Of a stretch of 64,000 bases of DNA, positions 7,500-51,051 are shown one piece after another. Position numbers and translations under genes: made by a program. The notes under the pieces were generated by a model that was not told where the DNA came from, searched no databases, and saw only the letters and a program-made list of their open reading frames with translations. Location: the NCBI RefSeq assembly GCF_900128415.1, contig NZ_LT635772.1, positions 372,001-436,000 of the forward strand. Reading direction: 5' to 3'. The first letter of the stretch is position 1. Each line of letters starts with the position of its first letter. The DNA is from Anaerococcus mediterraneensis (GTDB lineage Bacteria; Bacillota; Clostridia; Tissierellales; Peptoniphilaceae).

Positions 7500-8631
7500 C
7501 TATATATTCTCCTATACTTTTTTCATACGAAGCCAAACACTTCTGACCAAAATTATCTACAGAAAAATGTTCTAGGGCATATTCTCTGGCGTTTTTTTCT
7601 AATAGATCTTTATATTCCATGTCGGAAAAAACCCTCGATACAAAATTTTGGAATTGATCAAAGTCCTTGTACCTAAATCCATTAAAACCATTTATTATAA
7701 CCCCATCAAGGACAGAATCATCCCTGCAAAGGGCTATGGTAGCATTTGATAGGGCCTCATAATATGTAAGACCTTGGGTTTCTGACCTAGACCCACTTGC
7801 AAAAATATCTGCCGCTTGGTAATAACGACTGACAGAATTAGAATCCACCATGCCGGTAAAGACAATTTTCTTTTTTATATTTTCTGCATAAGATTTTAGC
7901 TTTTCTAGGTAAGGCCCACCGCCTACTATATATAGATTTATGTCTTCTTCTTTCAATTTATGATAAAAACTTATGATCTCTTCTATATTTTTTTCTTCTC
8001 CAAGCCTGCCTAGGTATAAGATTATTTTCTCATCCTTTTCTATGCCCAAGGATTTTCTCAAAATATCCTTATCAAAAAGCTCTGGCATCTGGATACCTGT
8101 TGGGATTATGTCTATTTTCTCACTTCCAATCCCATAGCTTAGCAAAAGCTTGTAGGTTTTTTCTGTTGGGACAATAATCCTATCACAAAATCCCGCAAAA
8201 GTCTTGCTAGCAAGGGCAACCATCTTTTTGCCCGCCCTTTCAGATGGAGAAAAATAATGGGTGTAGTCTTCATAAACAGTATGATAAGTGTGGACTATGG
8301 GTATCTCCAAATCTTTTTGGATCCTTTTAGCCATTATAAAGGTAGAAAACTCACACTGAGAATGGATCACATCTGGTCCCCAGTCCCTAATCTCCTTTAG
8401 ATGGGATTCTGCCAAAAGATTTGTAACCCTGGCTTGGGGATAAATTTTTTTTGCAGAAAGACTGCCTACATAAAAAACATTGCCATCTTTATATGATTTG
8501 CTTGTATTTGACAAGGTCAATACCCTTACATCATGGCCTTGGTCTTCTAAATATTTTTGTAAATTTAAAACAGAACGGACCACCCCGTTTACAACAGGCC
8601 AGTACCAGTCACTTGTTATAAGTATTTTCAT
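7468..8631 (-). CDS. MGlcDAG-synthase-like GT4 glycosyltransferase
   Basis: 387 residues from the ATG at 8629-8631, which has GTGAGG a few bases upstream; an upstream in-frame start would add ten residues without a site. It begins MKILITSDWYWPVVNGVVRSVLNL, the glycine-containing acceptor loop of the alMGS/Spr0982 group, contains HTYHTVYEDYTHYF, and has the GT4 donor motif ETQGLTYYEAL near residue 290. The predicted reaction is transfer of glucose from UDP-glucose to diacylglycerol. The following CpoA-like gene would extend the product. The tandem order matches the pneumococcal arrangement. Confidence 0.8.
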   Translation of the reverse strand: MKILITSDWYWPVVNGVVRSVLNLQKYLEDQGHDVRVLTLSNTSKSYKDGNVFYVGSLSAKKIYPQARVTNLLAESHLKEIRDWGPDVIHSQCEFSTFIMAKRIQKDLEIPIVHTYHTVYEDYTHYFSPSERAGKKMVALASKTFAGFCDRIIVPTEKTYKLLLSYGIGSEKIDIIPTGIQMPELFDKDILRKSLGIEKDEKIILYLGRLGEEKNIEEIISFYHKLKEEDINLYIVGGGPYLEKLKSYAENIKKKIVFTGMVDSNSVSRYYQAADIFASGSRSETQGLTYYEALSNATIALCRDDSVLDGVIINGFNGFRYKDFDQFQNFVSRVFSDMEYKDLLEKNAREYALEHFSVDNFGQKCLASYEKSIGEYIDESPNIFKRL

Positions 8632-8703
8632 ATAAACCTCACTTATATTAAGATACCACAAAAGCTCACATAAATAAACAAAAAGGATTTATCAAGTCCA
8701 ATC

Positions 8704-8732
8704 TTTGCTATTAGGAGAGTTTTAAGTATAAT
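8704..8732 (+). promoter_or_regulatory. promoter of SdpI-family gene leader
   Basis: A perfect TATAAT (8727-8732) with TTTGCT 17 bp upstream (8704-8709). It would start a transcript about 80 bases before the SdpI-family gene. Confidence 0.5.
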
Positions 8733-8760
8733 AATGATGATGTATATGTCAAATCATCAT

Positions 8761-8798
8761 AAAAAAGCAGGAGGTCCAAAAGACTAACCTGCTTTTTT
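8761..8798 (+). terminator. leader terminator (attenuator-like) before SdpI-family gene
   Basis: AAAAAAGCAGG and CCTGCTTTTTT enclose a smaller GGTC/GACT stem, giving a strong terminator that ends 22 bp before the SdpI-family ATG and downstream of its only visible promoter. A preceding hairpin ATGATGA/TCATCAT (8735-8760) makes conditional readthrough plausible. Confidence 0.7.
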
Positions 8799-8819
8799 AA
8801 AATATTTTTAGGAGAATTT

Positions 8820-9173
8820 ATGGGACCAATTATTGTAGGCGATATAATGCTTTTGATATTTTCAATCTACATAGGCGTATTTTTTAGGTTTTTTCACTCA
8901 AAATATCCTGGTATGGAAGTAGGTTTTCACGTTTGGGAAGCCTGCTATAGCAAAAAAACTTGGCCCTATGCCAACCGTCTAGCAGGATACCTATCTATAG
9001 GTCTTGGCATAATTTTTTATGGGATTGTGATACCTATACTTATATATTTAGACCTATCAAGAAAGCGTCTTTCCATAATACTGATAGCAAGTCTTTTGCT
9101 TTATTTTGTATTGCTATTTGCTATAAGCAAAATAATCCTAAGAAAAAAGTTTAATTTAAAGGATAATGATTGA
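8820..9173 (+). CDS. SdpI/YhfL-family membrane protein
   Basis: 117 residues with three hydrophobic segments (about 5-23, 57-77, 84-106). The stretch KKTWPYANRLAGYLSIGLGIIF holds the W..AN motif followed by a glycine-rich helix that typifies the SdpI/YhfL family; in Bacillus subtilis SdpI confers immunity to the SDP toxin, but most relatives have no assigned role. AGGAG precedes the ATG. No toxin gene is visible next to it. The structured leader with its terminator suggests conditional expression. Confidence 0.7.
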   Translation: MGPIIVGDIMLLIFSIYIGVFFRFFHSKYPGMEVGFHVWEACYSKKTWPYANRLAGYLSIGLGIIFYGIVIPILIYLDLSRKRLSIILIASLLLYFVLLFAISKIILRKKFNLKDND

Positions 9174-9197
9174 AATTATCTAATTTTAATATATAAT
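9170..9197 (+). promoter_or_regulatory. promoter of the P-type ATPase riboswitch
   Basis: TTGAAA (9170-9175), overlapping the stop codon of the SdpI-family gene, and TATAAT (9192-9197), spaced by 16 bp. Confidence 0.65.
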
Positions 9198-9202
9198 AAT
9201 AC

Positions 9203-9309
9203 CAGCAAAAGGGAGTAGCTCAATTATTCAATCGTCAAAACGGATTTTCCCGGTTGGATAAACCCTAAAAGGTGGCAAGACTTTTGGCTTAATGCCAAAA
9301 GTTTTTTTT
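9203..9309 (+). promoter_or_regulatory. yybP-ykoY (manganese) riboswitch
   Basis: The leader has AAAAGGGAGTAGC (9207-9219), a central CGGATTTTCCCGGTTGGATAAACCC region and a terminal hairpin CTTTTGGC-TTAAT-GCCAAAAG with eight T. This is the layout of the yybP-ykoY element, which binds Mn2+ and commonly controls P-type ATPases and other manganese exporters. I recognise it by conserved segments and by the gene it precedes, not by a covariance model. Manganese binding would be expected to disrupt the terminator and allow expression. Confidence 0.75.
9281..9309 (+). terminator. expression-platform terminator of the riboswitch
   Basis: CTTTTGGC-TTAAT-GCCAAAAG followed by a T run, 33 bp before the ATPase start. 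Confidence 0.85.
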
Positions 9310-9341
9310 ATATCTTTTTGCAAAAATTTATAGGAGGAATT

Positions 9342-12014
9342 ATGGACTACAAAGGCAGTATCAATGAAGTCATCAAGTCTTTACAGACTGACTCAAAAAG
9401 AGGACTGACTTCACAAGATGCAGAAAAAAGACTAGAAAAATATGGGCCAAATGTCATAGAATCATCAAACAAAAAGTCTTTGATCAAAAAAATTATAGAA
9501 CAAATTGCAGATCCAATGGTTATCTTGCTGATAGCAGCTGCGATTGTTTCTGCCTTCACAGGTGATGCTATAGAATGTGCTATTATAATTGCAATAGTTG
9601 TTATAAACGCTATCATGTCTATCATCCAAGAAGGCAAGGCCGAAGACTCTGTGGCAGCCCTACAAAAAATGAGTTCGCCAGAGGCCACGGTCATCCGTGA
9701 CGGATCTAGAAAACATATCAAGGCAGAAGACTTGGTACCAGGTGATATAGTTGTCATAGAAACTGGAGATATTATCCCAGCAGATATGAGACTTTTAGAA
9801 TCATCAAACCTAAAAATCGATGAATCATCCCTAACAGGAGAATCAGTTGCTGTAGAAAAAGACTCAAGTGCCGAATATACAGAGGAAGTAGGCATCGGTG
9901 ATAGGGAAAACTTTGCCTATTCATCTTCTATTGTAACCTACGGCCACGGTATAGGATTAGTAACATCTACAGGATCTCATACTGAAATGGGCAAGATCGC
10001 TACCAGTCTAGAAAGCGTTGAGGAAAAAGAAACTCCTCTTCAAAAACAGCTTAAAAAACTTTCAAAAGTCCTTGCTGTTCTTGTCGTGATAGTTTGTATA
10101 GCAGTATTTGCTCTTGATTATTTCAGAGGTGACAATGACCTACTAGAAAACTTTATGATCGCAGTATCTCTTGCAGTAGCTGCTATACCAGAGGGACTGA
10201 CAGCAGTTGTAACTATAGTTTTATCTATAGGTATGAACAGGATGTCAGAGAAAAAGGCAATTGTCAAAAACCTCTTGTCAGTAGAAACCCTTGGTTCAAC
10301 TACAACTATCTGCTCAGATAAGACTGGTACCCTAACTCAAAATGAAATGACCATCACAAGAGTCTATACAAATGGAGAGCAATTTGAGGTCGAAGGATCT
10401 GGCTACAAACCAGAAGGAGATATAAGAAATTCATCCAAAGAAGTCATCACAGATGACGGTCAAATAAATCTACTAATGACAATTGCCTCTTTGTGCAATG
10501 ACGCAAATCTCATCAGAGAAGGCGAAGAATACAAGATCACAGGTGACCCTACAGAAGGAGCTATGCTCACATTTTCTGAAAAATGGAATATCAACCAAGA
10601 AGACCTTAACGATAAATATCCAAGGCTTGCTGAGATTCCTTTTGATTCTACAAGAAAAATGATGACAACCTTCCACGAAATGGATGGCAAATACTATGCC
10701 TTCACCAAGGGTGCACCAGATATAGTAATGAAAAACTCATCAAAGATCCTAATCGATGGAGAACTTCGTGATTTTGACCAAAAATTAAGAGATGAGTATG
10801 CAGAGAAAAACAACGACCTAGCTAGCCAAGCCCTCAGGGTTATGGCCTATGCCTTTAAGCCACTCGCGAACCTAGATACTGACCTTACTACAGAAAATAT
10901 CGAGCATGACTTGGTATTTGTAGGTCTTACAGGCATGATTGATCCACCAAGACCAGAAGCCAAGGCAGCTGTTGCCGAATGTCACGCATCAGGTATAAAC
11001 GTCATGATGATAACAGGTGATTATTTTGAAACAGCCCTAGCCATAGCCAAGGACCTAGGTATAGCAGATAGCAGAAACCAAGCTATGCAAGGATCAGAAT
11101 TAAATGGCAAAACTGATGAAGAAATCAGAGAGATAGTCAAAGAAAAGAGAATTTTTGCTAGGGTATCTCCAGAAAACAAGGTCCAACTTGTAAAGGCCCT
11201 CCAAAAAAATGGAGAAATAGTAGCTATGACTGGAGATGGTGTCAACGACGCACCAGCTATCAAAAACGCAGATATCGGTATATCAATGGGTATAACCGGT
11301 ACAGATGTTGCAAAAGATACAGCTGATATGATCCTAGTTGATGATAACTTCGCAACCATAGTCAACGCTGTCGAAGAAGGAAGAGTTATATTTTCAAATA
11401 TCAAAAAATTTGTATCCTTCCTTCTATCTTGCAATATAGCCGAAGTCCTTATAGTATTTTTGTCAATCCTATTTGGTCTTCCAAACCCACTAACCCCTAT
11501 CCAGCTTTTGTGGCTAAACTTAGTTACTGATGCCTTCCCAGCCCTAGCCCTAGGTGTTGAGCCAGCAGAGCCAGGCCTAATGGAAGAGCCACCAAGAGAT
11601 CCAAGCAAGTCAATATTATCAGGCCAAACCAGGGTCGATTTGATCTTGCAATCCATATATATAACCATAGCTGTCTTGGCAGCCTACCTAGTAGGTCTAA
11701 AATTTATATTCCCAGACAGTATAGAGGGTGCTCACACAATGGTTTTTGCAAGCTTGATCACATCAGAACTCCTAAGAGCTTTCTCAGTTAGGAGTAGTAA
11801 ATATACCCTAAAAGAACTGGGCCTAACTTCTAATCCAAAGCTTATAAAGGCAGTTATCCTTTCCTTTGCCCTACTACTTGTAGTAATGTATGTACCAGTT
11901 CTTAGAGAATTATTTGAAGTAGTAGCCTTTACTTGGGAATGGATCCCAGTATTCTTGCTTGCCCTCATACCTCTAGTTTTAGGTGAACTTGGCAAAGTTG
12001 TCAGAAGAAAATAA
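9342..12014 (+). CDS. calcium/manganese-type P-type ATPase (PMR1/YloB-like)
   Basis: 890 residues from the ATG at 9342, which follows an ideal AGGAGG; the in-frame upstream ATG lacks a site. The order is that of P2A ATPases: cation N domain, TGES actuator loop (SSLTGESVAVEK), IPEGL in helix 4, CSDKTGTLT phosphorylation site, GDGVNDAPAI hinge, NLVTDAFPALALG helix 6 and the C-terminal helices. It would pump Ca2+ and/or Mn2+ out of the cytoplasm. The manganese riboswitch upstream favours Mn2+ export as a physiological role, as proposed for lactococcal YoaB. Confidence 0.9.
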   Translation: MDYKGSINEVIKSLQTDSKRGLTSQDAEKRLEKYGPNVIESSNKKSLIKKIIEQIADPMVILLIAAAIVSAFTGDAIECAIIIAIVVINAIMSIIQEGKAEDSVAALQKMSSPEATVIRDGSRKHIKAEDLVPGDIVVIETGDIIPADMRLLESSNLKIDESSLTGESVAVEKDSSAEYTEEVGIGDRENFAYSSSIVTYGHGIGLVTSTGSHTEMGKIATSLESVEEKETPLQKQLKKLSKVLAVLVVIVCIAVFALDYFRGDNDLLENFMIAVSLAVAAIPEGLTAVVTIVLSIGMNRMSEKKAIVKNLLSVETLGSTTTICSDKTGTLTQNEMTITRVYTNGEQFEVEGSGYKPEGDIRNSSKEVITDDGQINLLMTIASLCNDANLIREGEEYKITGDPTEGAMLTFSEKWNINQEDLNDKYPRLAEIPFDSTRKMMTTFHEMDGKYYAFTKGAPDIVMKNSSKILIDGELRDFDQKLRDEYAEKNNDLASQALRVMAYAFKPLANLDTDLTTENIEHDLVFVGLTGMIDPPRPEAKAAVAECHASGINVMMITGDYFETALAIAKDLGIADSRNQAMQGSELNGKTDEEIREIVKEKRIFARVSPENKVQLVKALQKNGEIVAMTGDGVNDAPAIKNADIGISMGITGTDVAKDTADMILVDDNFATIVNAVEEGRVIFSNIKKFVSFLLSCNIAEVLIVFLSILFGLPNPLTPIQLLWLNLVTDAFPALALGVEPAEPGLMEEPPRDPSKSILSGQTRVDLILQSIYITIAVLAAYLVGLKFIFPDSIEGAHTMVFASLITSELLRAFSVRSSKYTLKELGLTSNPKLIKAVILSFALLLVVMYVPVLRELFEVVAFTWEWIPVFLLALIPLVLGELGKVVRRK

Positions 12015-15275: not shown

Positions 15276-16622
15276 TTATCCTCGATCCTTGTATTTATTT
15301 ACCTTTCTGTATAAAAGCCCCATGGCCAAGAGTCCCTTGGCTATAGATGTGACGCTCATTGCTATCCAAACTCCATAAACTCCAACTTTTGGCATAAGTA
15401 AAATAGCTATTGGTATCCTAAAAAGATTGGCACCGACTCCCAGGCTTGCTGGGGTTTTTGTATCACCCATACCATTAAAACATCCTGCAAGACCTATTTC
15501 TATGGCCATAAAGGCTTGGGAGGTTCCTAGTATAAATAGGTAGGCCGCTCCTAGTTTTATAGCCTCTGGATCACTAGGAGTGAAGATTTCAAAAAGTCCT
15601 TTTCTAAAGCCAATCAGAACAATAGTTGCAAGGATCCCTATAAAGGCAACTAGCCTAAAGGATTCTTTGATAGATTCTACAACCCTATTTTTATTTTCCG
15701 CCCCATAATTTTGGGCTACAAGGGCCTGGATACCTACCTGGATACCTTCTGTTGTATTCCAAGAAATAGACTCAAGCTGGGCTCCGATAGAAGCTACCGC
15801 CACTGGTGTTGGGCCAAAGCCTGACATAAACCTATTTAAAACCATAGATATGGATGCATGGAAGCTACTCAAAAGACAGGCTGGCAGTCCTAGCTTGAAA
15901 ATTTCTAACTGCCAATTTTCCTTGTAGTCAATCTCGCTTATGGCTGATTTTATTATCCCATCTTGCCTTATAATCATAATTATAAAGACGCAAAATACCA
16001 AAAATTGGCTAAAAATCGTAGCTATAGCAGCCCCAGCTACACCCATAGCTGGAAAGGGTCCATAGCCAAAAATAAGGACCGGATCCAGGATAATATTGGC
16101 AAAAAGCCCTATTGCATTTATAACAAAGGGGGTAAAAGAATCCCCCAAAGATGTAAATGATTGGGTCAAAATTGGATTTATAAAATATAAGATCATCCCA
16201 AGACTAACTATAAGCATATAGGTCTTGGCAGCAGACTCAGCCTTAAAACCCAATTTATAAAACTCGATAAAATTATTTCTCACAAGGAGGGCAAGGCTTG
16301 TAAAAACAAAACCAATTATTATAGCCTGGCTCATGCCATTATTTATAATCCTAATTGTCTCATCTTTTTTGCCAGACCCATAGGCTTGGGAAGCAAAAAC
16401 CCCCATGCCTACCTTAGGGATCAAAGCTAGGGAATTTGCTATCCAAAAAACAAAACCAGCTATACCAACTCCTGCCACCACATCAGTACCTAGCCTTGAT
16501 ATATAAACCGTATCTACAAAACCATAGGCAATCTGAATAAAGGCAGTCAGAGCAAGGGGCAAGGACAATTTTAGAAGGGTTGGCCTAATCTGGCCCTCTA
16601 TTAAATTAATATTTTTTCTCAT
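15276..16622 (-). CDS. MATE family multidrug/metabolite efflux transporter
   Basis: 448 residues from the ATG at 16620-16622, which follows GGGAG; an upstream in-frame start would add nine residues without better support. Twelve hydrophobic segments in two pseudo-repeats, with the N-terminal PTLLKLSLPLALTAFIQIAYGFVDTVYISRLG of the NorM/DinF group. It would exchange cations (Na+ or H+) for organic substrates across the cytoplasmic membrane. Substrate unknown. Its original terminator downstream now holds a MITE-like insertion. Confidence 0.88.
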   Translation of the reverse strand: MRKNINLIEGQIRPTLLKLSLPLALTAFIQIAYGFVDTVYISRLGTDVVAGVGIAGFVFWIANSLALIPKVGMGVFASQAYGSGKKDETIRIINNGMSQAIIIGFVFTSLALLVRNNFIEFYKLGFKAESAAKTYMLIVSLGMILYFINPILTQSFTSLGDSFTPFVINAIGLFANIILDPVLIFGYGPFPAMGVAGAAIATIFSQFLVFCVFIIMIIRQDGIIKSAISEIDYKENWQLEIFKLGLPACLLSSFHASISMVLNRFMSGFGPTPVAVASIGAQLESISWNTTEGIQVGIQALVAQNYGAENKNRVVESIKESFRLVAFIGILATIVLIGFRKGLFEIFTPSDPEAIKLGAAYLFILGTSQAFMAIEIGLAGCFNGMGDTKTPASLGVGANLFRIPIAILLMPKVGVYGVWIAMSVTSIAKGLLAMGLLYRKVNKYKDRG

Positions 16623-16741
16623 ACAAACTCCCTTACCTTTCTTAAACAATTTATTCTAAAATTATACGCTTTGCCAAGACCTTTTACTAATCCATACCAG
16701 ATATAGATTGTTAAAAATATTCAATGAAGTATATTTATCAT

Positions 16742-17341
16742 ATGAAAAACTATGAAAATATGCTAAAAGGCGAGCTTTTTGTTACAGATAAGTTTCTAGA
16801 AGAAAAGTTAACAGGCTCTTGGGAAAAATTATTAAAATTAAATAATACTATAAATAGGCATGAGAGAAATAAAATATGCCAAGACCTCTTTGGTAGTTTT
16901 GGCAAATCTACCGTCCTGTCCCCATTTAGGTGCGACTACGGAGAAAATATCTACATAGGAGATAGGTCTTTTATAAATTTCAATGTCTCAATTATCGATT
17001 TGGGCAAGGTTATAATTGGCGATAGGGTCTTGATAGGTCCTGGGGTTGGGATCTTTACTGCAGTCCACCCAACCGATCCAGAAATCAGATCTACCGGTAT
17101 AGAAAAAGGTCTAGATGTAAAAATAGAAGATGGGGCATGGATAGGCGGCAATGCCACAATCCTACCAGGTGTTACAATCGGCAAGGGCGCTATAATCGGT
17201 GCTGGCTCAGTTGTGACAAAGGATATAGAAGAAATGTCTATAGCAGCTGGCAATCCTGCCAAGGTCATCAGAAAAATCACCGACGAAGATAAAAAATATT
17301 GGCAAGAAAAATACGATGCCTACCTAGCCGATAAGAAATAA
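16742..17341 (+). CDS. sugar O-acetyltransferase, hexapeptide-repeat (Maa/LacA-like)
   Basis: About 199 residues. The N-terminus NYENMLKGELF resembles the Maa domain, followed by left-handed beta-helix hexapeptide repeats (IGDRVLIGPGVGIFTAVHP, IEDGAWIGGNATILPGVTIGKGAIIGAGSVVTKDI) with the catalytic-type histidine in AVHP and the closing GNPAKVIRKI. It transfers acetyl from acetyl-CoA to a sugar hydroxyl; maltose or galactoside is typical but unproven. The start is uncertain: an in-frame ATG also lies at 16724, and neither has a strong ribosome binding site. Confidence 0.82.
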   Translation: MKNYENMLKGELFVTDKFLEEKLTGSWEKLLKLNNTINRHERNKICQDLFGSFGKSTVLSPFRCDYGENIYIGDRSFINFNVSIIDLGKVIIGDRVLIGPGVGIFTAVHPTDPEIRSTGIEKGLDVKIEDGAWIGGNATILPGVTIGKGAIIGAGSVVTKDIEEMSIAAGNPAKVIRKITDEDKKYWQEKYDAYLADKK

Positions 17342-44012: not shown

Positions 44013-44088
44013 TGGCTGGAATAGTAGGACTCGAACCTACGCTCTCCAGAGTCAGAATCTGGTGCCTTACCAACTTGGCTATATTCCA
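44013..44088 (-). tRNA. tRNA-Gln (CTG anticodon)
   Basis: A complete cloverleaf can be drawn on the minus strand: acceptor TGGAATA/TATTCCA, D arm with AGTTGGTAAGG, anticodon arm CCAGA-TTCTGAC-TCTGG with anticodon CTG, T arm GTAGG-TTCGAGT-CCTAC, discriminator G and encoded CCA. The U1-A72 start pair is typical for tRNA-Gln. Confidence 0.93.
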
Positions 44089-44210: not shown

Positions 44211-47200
44211 TCAACCTTGAGATGCGATTAGCTTTTCAAAATATCCTTTCAAATCACCATCTAGGGTATCTCTTTCTATGAGCAAAACTCCAGATTGCTT
44301 ACACCTATTTCTTATTCTCTCTATGTCATTTTCATTTTTATAGTTAAATGAATTTATTATAATAGGTACAGTATCTATACCAAATTTTGAAGCGTGATAG
44401 CCAATCTCGTATATAAACTCATTTTTTAGCATGGACTGCTTGCAAGAAATCAAATATGTTGTAAGGCCCTTGATACAAACTATATCTATTTCATTTTTGA
44501 TCAGCTCGCTATCCCTATCAAAATTATCCTCAGCCTTCCAGTCAATTTCTAAATTTAGGCCCACATTGTCAAAAACATCCCCAAACCTTGCTATTTTGAA
44601 AAAGACATAGGTTTCAAGGGCATTGCCTTCTCTTGCAAAAAAGTCCCTAAAGGCTAAAGATCCATAAGAAAAATTGAGCTTGACCAAATCATCATCTTCA
44701 TTATAGCTAGCATATTCTTTCTTTTTATCATCTAGGATATTAAAAACTTTTAGGTCTTGGCTAATCTTGTTATATTTTTCTATAAAATCGTTAAAAGCTC
44801 CTAAATAATCCTCTACATCTTCTATATAATGGAAATTAGCTGCCTTGCCGTCAGGTAGAATATCAAAGGTCTCTATTTCACTATCGCAATCTAAAGATGA
44901 GCTGATCAAATAATAATAATCATTTCGTCGAATTTCTTCACTATCAACATAGTCTATCTTGTAATTTAGTTTTACCAATTCAATTTTTTCTACCATATTT
45001 TCTATACACCTAATCAAAAAATCACCTAGATCTTCCAAACAATTTTTATCATAAGCTTTAACTTTTAGAAATCCTAGCTTTTCAGGAACTTCATAGGATT
45101 CTATAAAGCCATTATGAACTAAGTCATCCAAAACCCTAATGACCGGCCTAAAAATGTCTCTATTTGTCTCAGTCATTTTTTCCTTGAAGGCAAATGGATA
45201 GACTTTTCCAGATTTCATGACATTGTTTAGAGAAAATATATAGGACTTTTGTCCCTCATTTATTGTGTGTATATAATTTCTGTAGTCCTTGCCACCTGTA
45301 TCTTTATAGATATCCCACAAGCTATCTGCATATATATCTAGGTCCAAAAAGCTATTTATCTTATCTTCTGTATCAAGTCTAGCATTGTTTAGGTAGAAAG
45401 TCTCTTCTATACTTAGGCTTGGCATCATTAGATTATAATCAAGGCCCTCATAGTCCCCACCCCATTTGTTGTTGCCCTCATATATGACATAAGGAACTGG
45501 TCTTGGTGTGTTTAGAAAAGATGCAAACCTAGCCTGCTTGACAGTATTGCCTGTAAAATCAAAAATTATATTTTTATCAGCATGGTTTTCTATCTCAAAC
45601 TTGGCCTGGTCTTGGTCAATGATCCTTATATCTGTTGAACATAGATCTCTTTTATCACGGAGAAATCTCTTTATAGTTTCAAACTTATAGAGATTATTTT
45701 CTGATGGATCTTTTATAAAGACGACTTGGGTCGGCCTAAATTTTAGGACGCTAGCTATATTTTTCCAAAGACTGCCATCATCGCCTACAAAAGGCTTGTA
45801 GATTATATCGACAGGTCCATAGAGGATTTGCCCTATAGCATCAACTATATCATAATCTGTAATCCTATAATTTTTGTAGTTTTTGTTTGAAATTATAGTG
45901 CTTACCATCTCATCTATATCCAAATAAGTACTTTTAAACTTAGGAGATATTTCCTCTTCGCCTATAGAAAATAAATCTCTTATTTTCCTATCGATAAATT
46001 TATATATGGCCTGGCTATCCTTATCGCCTTTTCTTATATTTTCTATAGTATTTGCTAGCTTTTCCATATAAGATTTTAGGCTCTTATTTATAGGATCATC
46101 TGGATAATCATAGTTAATAACCAAAGATTTGATATTATCATCTAAAAACTTTTTACAATCTTTTATACTGGCTTCCTGGGCCTTTCTTATATTTTCAGAA
46201 ATCCTATCTATCTCATCAATATCCTTGCTATCTACAGCTTTTAGGTGGTAGTTGCTGATAAGGGGGTGGAGTTTTGCCTTTTTATCACGGTGGTCATTTT
46301 TATTTTTATAGGCGTAGGAGAAAAATACCTTATCAGTCGGCTTGTCATAGCCATCTACTATCATAAATTTATTCCAAGAATGGTGTTCCATATAGGCCAT
46401 CTTATCCCTAATTGTAGGACCTGTTGGATTTTCTGGATCAATTGGACTTTCATTTTTGATTAATTTTGAAAATTCCCTATAAGGTTTTGGGCTTCTGTGG
46501 ACACCACAATCATAGAGTTTGTATTTGATAGAAAGAGCAGATCGTAGAGATGATTTTGCATTATAAATATCTTTTTCCTCTATAAATTTTTCAAAAATCT
46601 TATCCCTATCGATCCTTTCTTCGGATGATAATTCATAAAAACTATGGACTCCAAAGGCTTGTTCTAGGATCTTGCCTTCAAATTCGCCCCTTTCTTCAGT
46701 GGCCATTTTTATTTGGTCATAATATATTAGGCTTGTCCCACTTGTAGTTTGATCTTTCCTATCCATACCAAGATTCAAAGACCTAACTATAATAACTCTT
46801 TTTTTATTATCATCTTTGACTTTGTCAAATATTTTCTTGCCAAGGTCCTCTTCCTTGGTATTTTTATTCTCTAAAAGAAGTATATAGGTATTTTTTTCTA
46901 TGTCTTTTAATTTATCAAAATTTTCGACCTCTACAAAATTTATACTAGCATAGGCCTCATCTGTTATAGACTTGTCAATATCATCAAAGACAAGATCATC
47001 ATTTATTTTTATCTGACAGGTTTTCTTTAAAAGAGGAGCTTCTTCTAATAAATACTCTTCGAATTTACTAGAGGTCCTATAATAAAAAGTGAAATTTAGG
47101 TCAACCCCCTCTATCAAAAGTGGGGCAAAGATCAAATCAAAATATAGTTTTGCCTTTTCACCATCATCAGCAATTATGCCTATATTTATATTTGATTCAC

Positions 47201-48212
47201 TATCTATATAATCATAAAGAGGATGTTTATCCAGAATATGGGCAGCTGCGATAAGATCAACTAGGGGTTGTCTAGTTTTTTCTGCAATCAAGTTTTTTGC
47301 CTTCATTAATTCTTGGATTATCCTATTATCACTTATAAACCTATCATAGATTCTCACACATTCTACAACTAGATCTATTAGGATAGAATTTATCCTCTCA
47401 TCTAAAAAGATCTTGTTTTTTATTTTATTTAGCTGGCCATAAAGTAGGTCTCTGATGAGATCCTCATCTTCTAAGATCCTATCATCTAGGTATTTACCAG
47501 TTATCAAATAAAACATATTTGAACCAAACATAAAGGTATCTAGACTAGGCTTTATCATGTAGGACCTGATAGTTTCCATATCACTTGTGTTTTTTAGCTC
47601 AGGTGCTAGAAAAGATTTTTGGCTAGGTCCATAGATGCTTTTGACTTTGTCTTTTTCCTTTAGGTCTATACAAGCATCAAAATCAAAAAACCTTACTTTT
47701 CTTTCTTCATAATCATATAATATATTGCTTGGCTTTAGGTCCATATAGACAATGTTTTCGTCATGGAGATTTTTTAGTATGCTTGCTAAGCTAGCCATAA
47801 CTTCTACTATCCTAAATATATCTAGAGATTTGAAATTATCTAGACTTCTGGCATTGTTTGTTTGATAAAAAGCAAGGAGCCTATCCTCATATTCTGACAG
47901 GTAAAGCGGCTCTACCATATCATCTCCCAGGATTGAAAAAAGTCTTTTATTCTTTTTAAAATCTTCTTTAAATTTTCTCCTATCTTTATCATTTATAATT
48001 TCTGAATCTTCCTTATTCTTTACTTTAAGCTCTTTTATGATAATTGTTTTTCTTGTATCTTCAGCAAGATTTACCACTGATTGATATATTCTTACATTAC
48101 TTTGCTCATCTATTAACTTTGGATGTAAAACTCTTATCTTTTTAGATGAGCCATCCATAGTCTCTATTTCTACAAGAAAATTATTTGGAAGCATTTGATC
48201 TTTTTTATTCAT
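44211..48212 (-). CDS. Ser/Thr kinase - RyR-like - CARF-like - PD-(D/E)xK nuclease fusion
   Basis: 1333 residues from the ATG at 48210-48212 (AAGGA upstream; other in-frame starts overlap the preceding gene). Domains seen: Hanks-type kinase (about 20-320) with lysine in IIIKELK (60), YMDLKPSNIL (D158, N163), DFD (D177) and APE (205). A Rossmann-like part (about 342-487, NINIGIIADDG) follows. An RyR-like part (about 602-677) has EHHSWNKFMIVDGY and KLHPLISNY. A CARF-like part (about 782-932) has IIFDFTGNT in place of the NxTGGT loop, and a helical linker follows. A C-terminal restriction-like fold of the DUF1887/Card1 type has LE near 1200, NEID (1240-1243) and SCK (1256-1258). A signal-activated nuclease controlled by phosphorylation or ligand binding is inferred. 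Kinase and nuclease calls are firm; the three middle domains are tentative. Confidence 0.72.
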   Translation of the reverse strand: MNKKDQMLPNNFLVEIETMDGSSKKIRVLHPKLIDEQSNVRIYQSVVNLAEDTRKTIIIKELKVKNKEDSEIINDKDRRKFKEDFKKNKRLFSILGDDMVEPLYLSEYEDRLLAFYQTNNARSLDNFKSLDIFRIVEVMASLASILKNLHDENIVYMDLKPSNILYDYEERKVRFFDFDACIDLKEKDKVKSIYGPSQKSFLAPELKNTSDMETIRSYMIKPSLDTFMFGSNMFYLITGKYLDDRILEDEDLIRDLLYGQLNKIKNKIFLDERINSILIDLVVECVRIYDRFISDNRIIQELMKAKNLIAEKTRQPLVDLIAAAHILDKHPLYDYIDSESNINIGIIADDGEKAKLYFDLIFAPLLIEGVDLNFTFYYRTSSKFEEYLLEEAPLLKKTCQIKINDDLVFDDIDKSITDEAYASINFVEVENFDKLKDIEKNTYILLLENKNTKEEDLGKKIFDKVKDDNKKRVIIVRSLNLGMDRKDQTTSGTSLIYYDQIKMATEERGEFEGKILEQAFGVHSFYELSSEERIDRDKIFEKFIEEKDIYNAKSSLRSALSIKYKLYDCGVHRSPKPYREFSKLIKNESPIDPENPTGPTIRDKMAYMEHHSWNKFMIVDGYDKPTDKVFFSYAYKNKNDHRDKKAKLHPLISNYHLKAVDSKDIDEIDRISENIRKAQEASIKDCKKFLDDNIKSLVINYDYPDDPINKSLKSYMEKLANTIENIRKGDKDSQAIYKFIDRKIRDLFSIGEEEISPKFKSTYLDIDEMVSTIISNKNYKNYRITDYDIVDAIGQILYGPVDIIYKPFVGDDGSLWKNIASVLKFRPTQVVFIKDPSENNLYKFETIKRFLRDKRDLCSTDIRIIDQDQAKFEIENHADKNIIFDFTGNTVKQARFASFLNTPRPVPYVIYEGNNKWGGDYEGLDYNLMMPSLSIEETFYLNNARLDTEDKINSFLDLDIYADSLWDIYKDTGGKDYRNYIHTINEGQKSYIFSLNNVMKSGKVYPFAFKEKMTETNRDIFRPVIRVLDDLVHNGFIESYEVPEKLGFLKVKAYDKNCLEDLGDFLIRCIENMVEKIELVKLNYKIDYVDSEEIRRNDYYYLISSSLDCDSEIETFDILPDGKAANFHYIEDVEDYLGAFNDFIEKYNKISQDLKVFNILDDKKKEYASYNEDDDLVKLNFSYGSLAFRDFFAREGNALETYVFFKIARFGDVFDNVGLNLEIDWKAEDNFDRDSELIKNEIDIVCIKGLTTYLISCKQSMLKNEFIYEIGYHASKFGIDTVPIIINSFNYKNENDIERIRNRCKQSGVLLIERDTLDGDLKGYFEKLIASQG

Positions 48213-48222
48213 ATGTTTTTCC

Positions 48223-48750
48223 TTATTCAATAATTTCATAAGTTTTTTCAAAAATCTCTTTGTCTACAAAATTGAAATCGTACTTGCAAGGTCCTTTTTT
48301 ATCCTCAGAATAAATCAATAGATAATCTTTCTTTCTGCCATAGACTGTAAAAGAATCTATCCTGGCCTTGAAATATTTTTCGGGATCGTCTGTGATCTCT
48401 AAAAATCCCTTATCCTTTAGATAGGAAATTATTTTATCGTCTAAATCATCGGACCTAAAGGCTTTGCGGACCTTGCTTGTTTCTAAATATATATTAGGAG
48501 ATATGACCTTATGATTTTTTTCAAAATCACAGGCCTTGACCGGATATATATCTCCGTCCTTATCTATTTTTATAAAAGAGTCTATATCTGCTACTTGACC
48601 CTTATTATTCCTCGTTTCTTTAGTCAAAACCTCATAAAAATCAATATTATTTATAAGCTTTCCTAACTTTATAAAATATTCCTCCAAAGGATTTTCACAT
48701 CCTAGTCTAAAGGCCATAACTAGGCCTGGTTTTTTTCTAACTTTTATCAT
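48223..48750 (-). CDS. small PGDYG-like protein coupled to the kinase-nuclease fusion
   Basis: 175 residues, no signal peptide. The start MIKVRKKPGLVMAFRLG and the middle IDKDGDIYPVKACDFEKNHKVI resemble the PGDYG-type fold found in phage and conflict-system proteins; the PGDYG motif itself is not exact. AGGAGG precedes the ATG. The stop lies only 11 bp before the kinase-nuclease ATG, so the two are in one transcript and probably function together. An accessory sensor or regulatory partner is an inference. Confidence 0.5.
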   Translation of the reverse strand: MIKVRKKPGLVMAFRLGCENPLEEYFIKLGKLINNIDFYEVLTKETRNNKGQVADIDSFIKIDKDGDIYPVKACDFEKNHKVISPNIYLETSKVRKAFRSDDLDDKIISYLKDKGFLEITDDPEKYFKARIDSFTVYGRKKDYLLIYSEDKKGPCKYDFNFVDKEIFEKTYEIIE

Positions 48751-48907: not shown

Positions 48908-49210
48908 CTATAATAGGTCTTTAAGGTTATTTACACCCAAAATATTAAAATTACCCTTGGCTTTGCTGTTAGGATTTAGTAATTCTTCTGTTTTTTTCTT
49001 GTAGTCTTCCGCCTTTTTATACTTGCCTCTAGACTCATAATAATCTGAAAGGTCCTTATATGATCCTACCAAATTTTCAAGTATTTCACCATCAGATGAA
49101 TTATCATGTAAATCTTCTAAAATACCCTTGGCTTCTAATAGATGTTTCTTGGTCTTTTTCCCCTTGGAATTACCATATAGTGCACCTAAATTTCCATAAA
49201 TGATTGCCAA
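48908..49210 (-). pseudogene. C-terminal TPR fragment of a broken NACHT-TPR gene
   Basis: A 100-codon frame starting from a poor TTG. Its upstream extension (FRTKKCLAIIYGNLGALYG) joins the preceding TPR frame by a one-base shift next to a run of seven A, around 49215-49222. The sequence YGNLGALYGN...AKGILEDLHD...LVGSYKDLSDYYESRGKYKKAEDYKK continues the TPR pattern. It is probably the C-terminus of the same ancestral gene as 49224-50021. Confidence 0.65.
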
Positions 49211-49223
49211 GCATTTTTTTGTT

Positions 49224-50021
49224 CTAAATCCTTTCTTTAACTACAAGCTTTTGAAACTTAAGAGCCTTTTCCGCGAACTTCCTTGATTGACCATGCTTAT
49301 TTTTCTTAAAGTATAAATCTGATAATACATTGCTAGAATTTACCATATTTCTTTTATCTTCATATGATTGATTTTTATTAGGAATATCTTCCACAAGACT
49401 TATGACTTCCTTGAAATAGAATTCTGAATCATCATACCTTTCCATTGATTCATATAATTTTCCTAGGTTATTATAGGACCTTGCTAGGTCTGATATGTCA
49501 GTCATAGAGCTTTGAGATTCTTTGAGTTCTTTATATAATTCTATTGCTTTTTTATTATAGATTTCTGATTTTTCATAATTTTGCATTGATTCATATAAGA
49601 CTCCTAGGTTGTTATAGGACCTTGCTAGGTCTGATATATCTGTTAGAGAATTGCGTGATTCTTTGAGTTCTTTATATAATTCTATTGCTTTTTTAAGATA
49701 TCTTTCTGACTTTTCATAATTTTGTATTGATTCTTGCAAGTACCCTAGATTATTATAAGAATTGCCAAGCTCATCTTTATAATCTAAATTAACTTTTCCT
49801 AATGATAGAATCTCTTGTTTTTCTATAATACCTTTAATAATATTTAAAGACTCATCTTCTTTTCCTATTTTCTCTAGTAGTTCACTATATCTGTTGACTA
49901 CTTTTAAATGATATAAGATATTCTCCTCGTCATCTTTATAAATTCCTATCATATCCTCATATAATTTTGTTGCAGGTTCTACCCTAAAATAATCTATTTC
50001 TTCATTTGCAAAATCTAACAA
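49224..50021 (-). pseudogene. TPR fragment of a broken NACHT-TPR gene
   Basis: 265 codons with at least three nearly identical 40-residue tetratricopeptide repeats (DLARSYNNLGVLYESMQNYEKSE and variants). The frame is open further upstream (ERLLNNKEAKDRLLDFANEE) but there is no ribosome binding site, so it looks like the middle of a longer protein rather than an independent gene. In NACHT proteins such repeats recognise the trigger. The frame ends at a TAG in the shift described for the next fragment. Confidence 0.65.
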
Positions 50022-50082
50022 CCTATCCTTGGCTTCTTTGTTGTTTAAAAGTCTTTCAGCGCCTTTTGTCCTCTCTGGTTTT

Positions 50083-50985
50083 TTAGGGCTCTATTAGGAT
50101 CATTTGGTTTTCCATTTTTCCGTCTATGCATATGGAGAGGGGTCTGACTATGAGGTAGTCGAATTCTTCTGCTTCTTTGTAGTCTTCTCTTATGTGGATT
50201 TGCCCGTCGTCTACATTTTCTTCTAGGCCCATTTGGTTTATTTTTTTCGTTGGCACTGCTATGGATTCTAGTTGGTGGAGTAGGGCTGTCCTGTAGTCTG
50301 GGATTTGGCAGGCTAGTTGGAAGGCTAGCTCTCTTATTAGGTTTTTGCTGGTGGAGAAGTTTTCTTTGTTGTATTCGCAGAAGAAGCTTGCTGCTACATG
50401 GTAGTCGGTGTGGCATTTTTCGGCGGCGTAGTGGGATTTGCCTGTGGCTGGTTGGACGTAGACTACTCCTATTTTTTTACCCTCTGGATCATCTATATAT
50501 TTTATCAAGTCCTCATTTATCTCTATGATCCTTTGATAAATTTTCTTGGCTTCTAAGAAGTTTTTGCCGGCTAATTTAATAGCCGCTTGGATTTCATATT
50601 GTTTTCTCATCAAATATAATTCATTGGTCAAATCAATCCACTGGCCATTGTTTGCCCAAACTATATTACAAGCTTCTATTCCTATCTTGTTTTTTCTCTC
50701 AGATGGATCTAGACTTTCTATATCAATATCCATAGGTCTTTGCTCATAAAACTCCGATATTTGTTCTTTGTATTTATCAAGCCTCTCACGGTCATAATTC
50801 TTCCCCCAAATTTGATAGAGGTCATTGGCCAAGATTATTAGGTCCAAGTAGAGGTTTTCACCAACTTTATAATCACCTTGGCATATAAAATATTCTGCAA
50901 CTATTCTTTCTCTTTCGATCACATTGTTTATAGCTAGAACTAGATCATCTTCTATAGACTTTATGATATTGTTTTCCTTATTCAT
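50083..50985 (-). pseudogene. NACHT/STAND NTPase fragment, truncated after Walker B
   Basis: About 300 codons with a proper start (GAGGGG before the second ATG). A helical N-terminal domain (about 1-165) is followed by a STAND NTPase: Walker A variant VQPATGKSHYAAE, then AASFFCEYN...STSKNLIRELAFQLACQIPDYR and a Walker B-like MILIE at the very end. A frameshift and deletion then remove the rest of the NTPase and the winged helix before the TPR part. The NTPase portion has C-ending codons and more G+C than the AT-rich N-terminal part. Confidence 0.7.
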
Positions 50986-51051
50986 AATCATACCCCTCTC
51001 TTTTTTCTTATTATAGACTATGATTTTTTATAAATTTTTCCAAAATCCTAT

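Follow-up and report, generated by a model that had tools for sequence, protein, structure and literature searches.

A fusion of kinase, RCK-RyR and CARF-nuclease domains

Our analysis concerns a single large gene of Anaerococcus mediterraneensis, carried on a 64,000-nucleotide stretch of DNA ('the window'; positions 372001–436000 of the single 2.08-Mb contig of genome G000). The gene occupies window positions 44211–48212 on the minus strand, as do all of the domains described below, and from an ATG at 48212 encodes a protein of 1333 amino acids; an alternative in-frame TTG at 48251 gives 1346 amino acids, and it is from this longer form that residue numbers are counted throughout. We use 'giant' as a label for this kinase/RCK/RyR/CARF/nuclease protein (the window's copy being P0001) and for its full-length relatives. 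The gene is real and intact, with a domain architecture that recurs in relatives; the domains themselves are known, and it is the combination of kinase, RCK-RyR and CARF-nuclease that appears to be new. A first-pass annotation, made from the sequence of the window, had read a kinase, an RyR-like, a CARF-like and a nuclease segment in this one protein: the observation is confirmed and the domain calls hold. In the open-licence literature searched we found no description of a kinase-RyR-CARF-nuclease protein, nor of a bacterial RyR domain as the receptor of a TIR-made signal; work from the Aravind group in 2015 on nucleotide-centric conflict systems is said to touch, perhaps, on bacterial RyR or TrkA-RyR proteins.

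Reading the chain from its N-terminus, we see a Hanks-type protein kinase domain (residues 65–300; 47352–48059), recognised by PF00069 with an E-value of 1.4e-14 and retaining all four of the catalytic residues K73, D171, N176 and D190; in agreement with the earlier call of a kinase with usable catalytic residues. The same Pfam family is carried by 41 of the 51 family members, the window's copy included. PADLOC matches to the kinases mad6, MkoA and PD-T4-6 span this part of the protein alone and were not taken for classification.

Beyond the kinase lie an RCK/TrkA-N-like Rossmann domain (approximately residues 328–520; 46692–47270) and a tandem ryanodine-receptor (RyR) Repeat12-like domain (approximately residues 521–685; 46197–46691), a putative sensor unit reminiscent of ion channels. 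The RyR-like domain contains the pair H623-x-x-W626 (46374–46385) together with H662 and D679 (46215–46268), the motif equivalents of H75, W78, H100 and D117 in the phage protein RyDEP; the RyDEP report (PMC13232231) describes contacts of H75 and D117 with the terminal ribose of the ligand, of W78 with its adenine and of H100 with its phosphates. The equivalence is by motif order, rather than by structural superposition, and on that footing the H, W, H and D of the giant are predicted to correspond to the RyDEP ligand residues. Across an alignment of 43 rows, comprising the window's giant and 42 of 50 family homologues (P0004, P0006–P0009, P0012, P0013 and P0017 being left out to balance depth, and P0031 dropped as no relative), H623 and D679 are invariant, W626 and H662 are each found in 42 rows, and all four occur together in 41; as the rows, like the gene neighbourhoods considered below, are related to each other, such counts describe a pattern and are not a test of significance. 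A separate check of 16 giants found all four in 14, with one change each in L026 and L023.

The PF02026 model by itself gives no match at E 0.01 to the giant of G000. An RyR profile built without any giants, however, matches P0001 at E 1.3e-4, its top-scoring stretch spanning the EHxxW site in all 51 family members (E < 0.05 in 47), with none of 312 controls falling below E 0.1. At the level of fold, this part of the giant may resemble RyR Repeat12, the helical tandem repeat giving a weak match. A search of the PDB with a profile of the whole giant is uninformative on the middle of the protein, because its best 60 of 2570 rows are kinases.

The C-terminal half begins with a CARF domain (approximately residues 812–935; 45447–45818), which overlays on those of Card1, Can2 and VC1899, as well as on the CARF domains of Csm6, Cam1 and ring nucleases. 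Its ligand-loop segment, IIFDFTGNT (residues 895–903; 45543–45569), lacks the usual GG, a loss common to all 43 aligned giants; by contrast, 22 of 23 stand-alone Card1-like relatives retain the pair (as TGG in 20), this comparison set being confined to frames of 380–470 amino acids. Within the loop D898 is kept in all 43 giants and T900 in 42. The altered loop remarked upon in the first-pass annotation is confirmed, and its missing GG makes binding of cyclic tetra-adenylate (cA4) in the usual manner appear doubtful.

There follows a PD-(D/E)xK nuclease domain (residues 1185–1346; 44214–44699), identified through the PADLOC model CARF_PDDEXK, PF09002 and its fold; the CARF and PD-(D/E)xK folds together are present along the whole length of the Card1/Can2 chain in our structure overlay. 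The PF09002 match to the window's giant lies under the curated cut-off (21.9 bits against 26.4; 25.3 bits in the genome scan), and the earlier assignment of a Card1-type nuclease is borne out by the fold and by an intact catalytic triad (44439–44615), formed of E1213 (44613–44615), D1256 (44484–44486) and K1271 (44439–44441) and found complete in 31 of the 43 rows. The use of SCK instead of ECK around the triad lysine is usual among the stand-alone Card1-like proteins of the class.

Card1 and Can2 (DUF1887, PF09002) are ancillary nucleases of CRISPR systems, from which the giant differs in the kinase, RCK and RyR domains fused at its N-terminus and in the CARF loop just described. No Cas10 palm domain scores over cut-off in the 11 giant-bearing genomes searched, the one sub-cutoff match being in G211 (E 5.4e-5), and no Csm1 was found in G000. 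The window likewise holds no array-like repeats, the remainder of the genome not having been searched for arrays; all of which agrees with the earlier remark that no CRISPR components are visible.

Two separable outputs and a constant sensor

Loss of catalytic residues across the alignment follows a pattern. The nuclease triad is broken in 12 of 43 rows, every one of which keeps the kinase K, D, N and D; conversely, the kinase is degenerate or absent in ten, all with their triad in place (a figure that may be nine, since P0041 is possibly cut off at its N-terminus by the end of a contig; P0015 is without the N-terminal part that would carry the kinase lysine). Both are kept in 21 rows, including the window's giant, and in no row are both lost. 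The RCK-RyR sensor, rather than the kinase, is the most constant part of the family, and these sequence patterns suggest a single sensor with two outputs, kinase and nuclease, either of which can be lost by itself.

Giants occur in 8 of 31 genomes of the same genus, in 11 copies, and the triad is dead in all ten Anaerococcus giants other than that of the window. In P0002, the closest relative of the window's copy, the triad K is replaced by T. The window's giant shares 63–91% identity with its nearest relatives and approximately 30% with a group of lone giants (L019, L020, L023, L026, L065 and L066) in which the nuclease is dead and the kinase residues are intact. The lone giants share what is apparently one conserved site, with luciferase-like genes and ribosomal or rpoC genes as neighbours (identified by eye), and look domesticated. 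Among 391 genomes of the class we find at least three further giants, most of the 43 genomes with matches having only stand-alone frames of about 400 amino acids; 398 genomes drawn from the phylum yielded no additional one. As no more than two candidates were scored in any genome in either survey, these counts are lower bounds. Searches of phages, plasmids and IMG/VR revealed no relative, so the giant is not evidently a phage or plasmid gene.

Genes adjoining giants and their derivatives

The gene immediately upstream of the window's giant encodes a 175-aa protein (48223–48750, minus strand; ending 10 bases upstream of the giant ATG), whose homologues lie near giants or a kinase-only derivative at L017, L018, L021, L024, L025, L058, L063 and L064. 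It has no Pfam family over cut-off, its PDB matches are no better than E 1.3, and it matches PHROG 419 at E 4.8e-6. The Anaerococcus loci L017, L018 and L021 share the order 175-aa gene, gene for about 560 amino acids, giant (interrupted by a stop in L017), DUF4062-STAND-TPR gene; L022 has the same order with the small gene missing, and at all four the DUF4062-STAND-TPR gene starts no more than about 0.4 kb past the giant. Here and below, neighbours without a family match were named by eye.

Of seven DUF4062 matches in the 11 genomes searched, the five over cut-off adjoin a giant (G012, two in G025, G026) or a kinase-only gene (G028), and the two below it do not. The kinase-only derivative stands within the 175-aa/560-aa/DUF4062 operon in G028 and G029, split in the latter (L063 11304–12335; L064 9532–10586, split). 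In L064 the STAND-TPR gene has shrunk to a 147-aa TPR remnant. The larger partner, of 560–777 amino acids, is a single family across Anaerococcus, L024 and L025. Similarly sized genes next to the L058–L060 giants do not match it, and we rejected it as a universal component.

In other Clostridia the neighbours include TIR domains and phosphatases. TIR genes lie within 10 kb of the giants of L024 (a TIR_2 gene, 6 kb upstream), L058, L059 and L060. Three genomes of this class (G211, G328 and G405), picked because they hold giants, have a TIR_2 match within 19 kb of a giant in 11 of 12 cases (3/3, 4/4 and 4/5, respectively) and within 10 kb in 8 of 12. PP2C genes (PF13672) occur at three loci: in L059 (E 8e-23) and L060 (E 2e-19) the giant has one as its immediate upstream neighbour and a PF02026 gene immediately downstream, and in L025 (E 1e-27) the PP2C gene lies one gene from the giant. 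Two further features of L058 may be recorded: a fusion of a TIR domain with a protein kinase (8180–9748) near the giant, which is on the other strand, and a Clp protease gene (16565–17146; PF00574, E 4e-64) two genes upstream.

The association of RyR with TIR extends beyond giants. PF02026 scores over cut-off in 20 of 291 Clostridia genomes, which together hold 37 TIR_2 genes; in 7 of the 20 an RyR gene has a TIR gene no more than 1.2 kb away, where uniform placement would give approximately 0.06. Five of these close pairs are outside giant loci, those of G211 and G328 being giant loci; the other 13 genomes have no pair within 1.5 kb, three of them being without any TIR_2 match. At L061 (389–4863) and L062 (7124–10613), Rossmann-RyR genes with a hydrophobic N-terminus (by eye) are followed by a TIR gene, with a PF02026 gene between in L062. 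The encoded proteins, and a similar one at L024 (5455–7464), resemble the Rossmann-RyR half of the giant, with a probable membrane part (again by eye, no Pfam family scoring over cut-off) in place of its kinase and nuclease; L061 and L062 may each be a Thoeris-like system of two or three genes whose output is at the membrane.

Upstream of the window's giant there are also pieces of a STAND/TPR gene (48908–50991, minus strand; TPR at 48908–49210 and 49224–50021, NPHP3_N at 50083–50991), probably a decayed gene. Just downstream of the giant is a tRNA-Gln (CTG; 44013–44088), a possible integration site.

Discussion

Several relatives of the giant lie among immune genes of the TIR type, a setting suggestive of a new immune effector that senses alarm signals. 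We propose that the giant is an RyR-sensor effector, reading an alarm of the ADP-ribose (ADPR) type derived from nicotinamide adenine dinucleotide (NAD) and driving the nuclease and/or the kinase, and assign this reading a probability of roughly 0.55. TIR or TIR-like (DUF4062) enzymes would consume NAD upon sensing infection, and the RCK-RyR core would bind an NAD-derived adenine nucleotide, most likely of the ADPR or cyclic ADPR type; binding would be relayed to the Card1-type CARF-nuclease, with cleavage of nucleic acid stopping phage growth, and/or to the kinase, which would phosphorylate a partner and be opposed by PP2C in some lineages. Domains, predicted folds, conserved site residues and gene neighbourhoods form the observed base of this proposal: the neighbourhoods argue for the link between NADase and RyR, and the conserved residues for nucleotide binding. 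The ligand, its coupling to the outputs, the nuclease and kinase activities and the role in phage defence are what we infer from that base. The earlier suggestion of a CRISPR-independent, signal-activated conflict system gains support from the TIR, DUF4062-STAND-TPR and PP2C genes near several relatives, its function remaining a prediction. Its companion idea, that phosphorylation releases the nuclease, survives as just one possible wiring, since kinase and nuclease appear to be losable one at a time.

Several observations weigh against our proposal in the case of the window's own copy and its genus. The TIR_2 domain nearest to the window's giant is some 98 kb away, outside the window (in a 1129-aa frame; C1:317704–317970 of G000), DUF4062 has no match anywhere in G000, and of five TIR_2 matches in eight genomes of the same genus none is near a giant. 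With no TIR near the giant in G000, the signal would have to come from an enzyme encoded far away, which is the weakest point for the window's copy. Its glycine loop is also eroded (D48 and Q50) and does not fit the GxGxxG pattern.

A kinase-phosphatase switch, in which the kinase has the nuclease half or a partner as its substrate, PP2C resets the switch and nucleotide sensing is secondary, is the likeliest of the alternatives, and one we consider unlikely. It would account for the PP2C genes at L059, L060 and L025, the survival of kinase residues where the nuclease is dead, the kinase-only derivative next to DUF4062 in G028 and the TIR-kinase fusion near the L058 giant; against this, the relatives without an intact kinase retain RyR and nuclease, the window's own glycine loop is eroded and no PP2C was noticed by eye among the genes beside it. 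That CARF is instead the true sensor, of a cyclic oligonucleotide from a distant CRISPR- or CBASS-type polymerase, with RyR and RCK structural or modulatory, seems to us improbable: the CARF fold is complete and D898 and T900 are kept, yet the GG of the ligand loop is missing throughout the family, and our searches, which covered Cas10 and Csm1 and not CBASS synthases, found no candidate polymerase over cut-off. A little less probable still is domestication in Anaerococcus as a stress or metabolic regulator outside defence, with the window's copy in that role. The six lone giants at their apparently shared site are what such a history would leave; the window's giant, however, sits on another branch, with an intact triad and different neighbours. 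A chance fusion or a functionless, decaying gene, as the decayed STAND/TPR neighbour, the eroded loop and the K-to-T change in P0002 might hint, is hard to credit given a 1333-codon open frame, the recurrence of the PF00069 and RyR matches across the family and the conserved site residues.

An RyR-sensor effector would stand between several known systems. Its likeness to Thoeris lies in the TIR genes at L024, L058, L059 and L060 and in the predicted ADPR-type signal; it differs in its RyR sensor and kinase/nuclease outputs, and the window's copy is without an adjacent TIR. Unlike Card1 and Can2, its relatives in several cases adjoin TIR, DUF4062 or PP2C genes. PMC13174449 describes some DUF4062 proteins as NADases protecting against phage, and the DUF4062-STAND-TPR gene that follows the giant in four Anaerococcus loci recalls Swarozyc/DUF4062-NACHT, with a STAND-TPR layout closer to TEP1/NPHP3 than to the tested single-gene Swarozyc. 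With RyDEP and the bacterial and animal RyR Repeat12 domains (PF02026), the giant has in common the HxxW...H...D residues and perhaps, by a weak match, the helical tandem-repeat fold; the RyR proteins of phages, though, are sponges or glycosidases, whereas the RyR of the giant is on the host side and part of a multi-output protein.

More tentatively, and at somewhat less than even odds, RyR Repeat12 may be the bacterial host receptor of TIR-made cyclic ADP-ribose alarms, mirroring the ryanodine receptors of animals and accounting for the RyR sponges of phages; the giant would be a dual-output member, in which one RCK-RyR receptor serves a kinase and also a nuclease that once belonged to CRISPR, individual lineages having retained either output or both. 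The four named residues (H623, W626, H662 and D679) yield a testable prediction of the ligand. If our reading is correct, phage RyR sponges and glycosidases would gain a host-side counterpart, a CRISPR effector would have been reused under a different signal, and a module of animal calcium channels would serve bacterial immunity as an alarm receptor.
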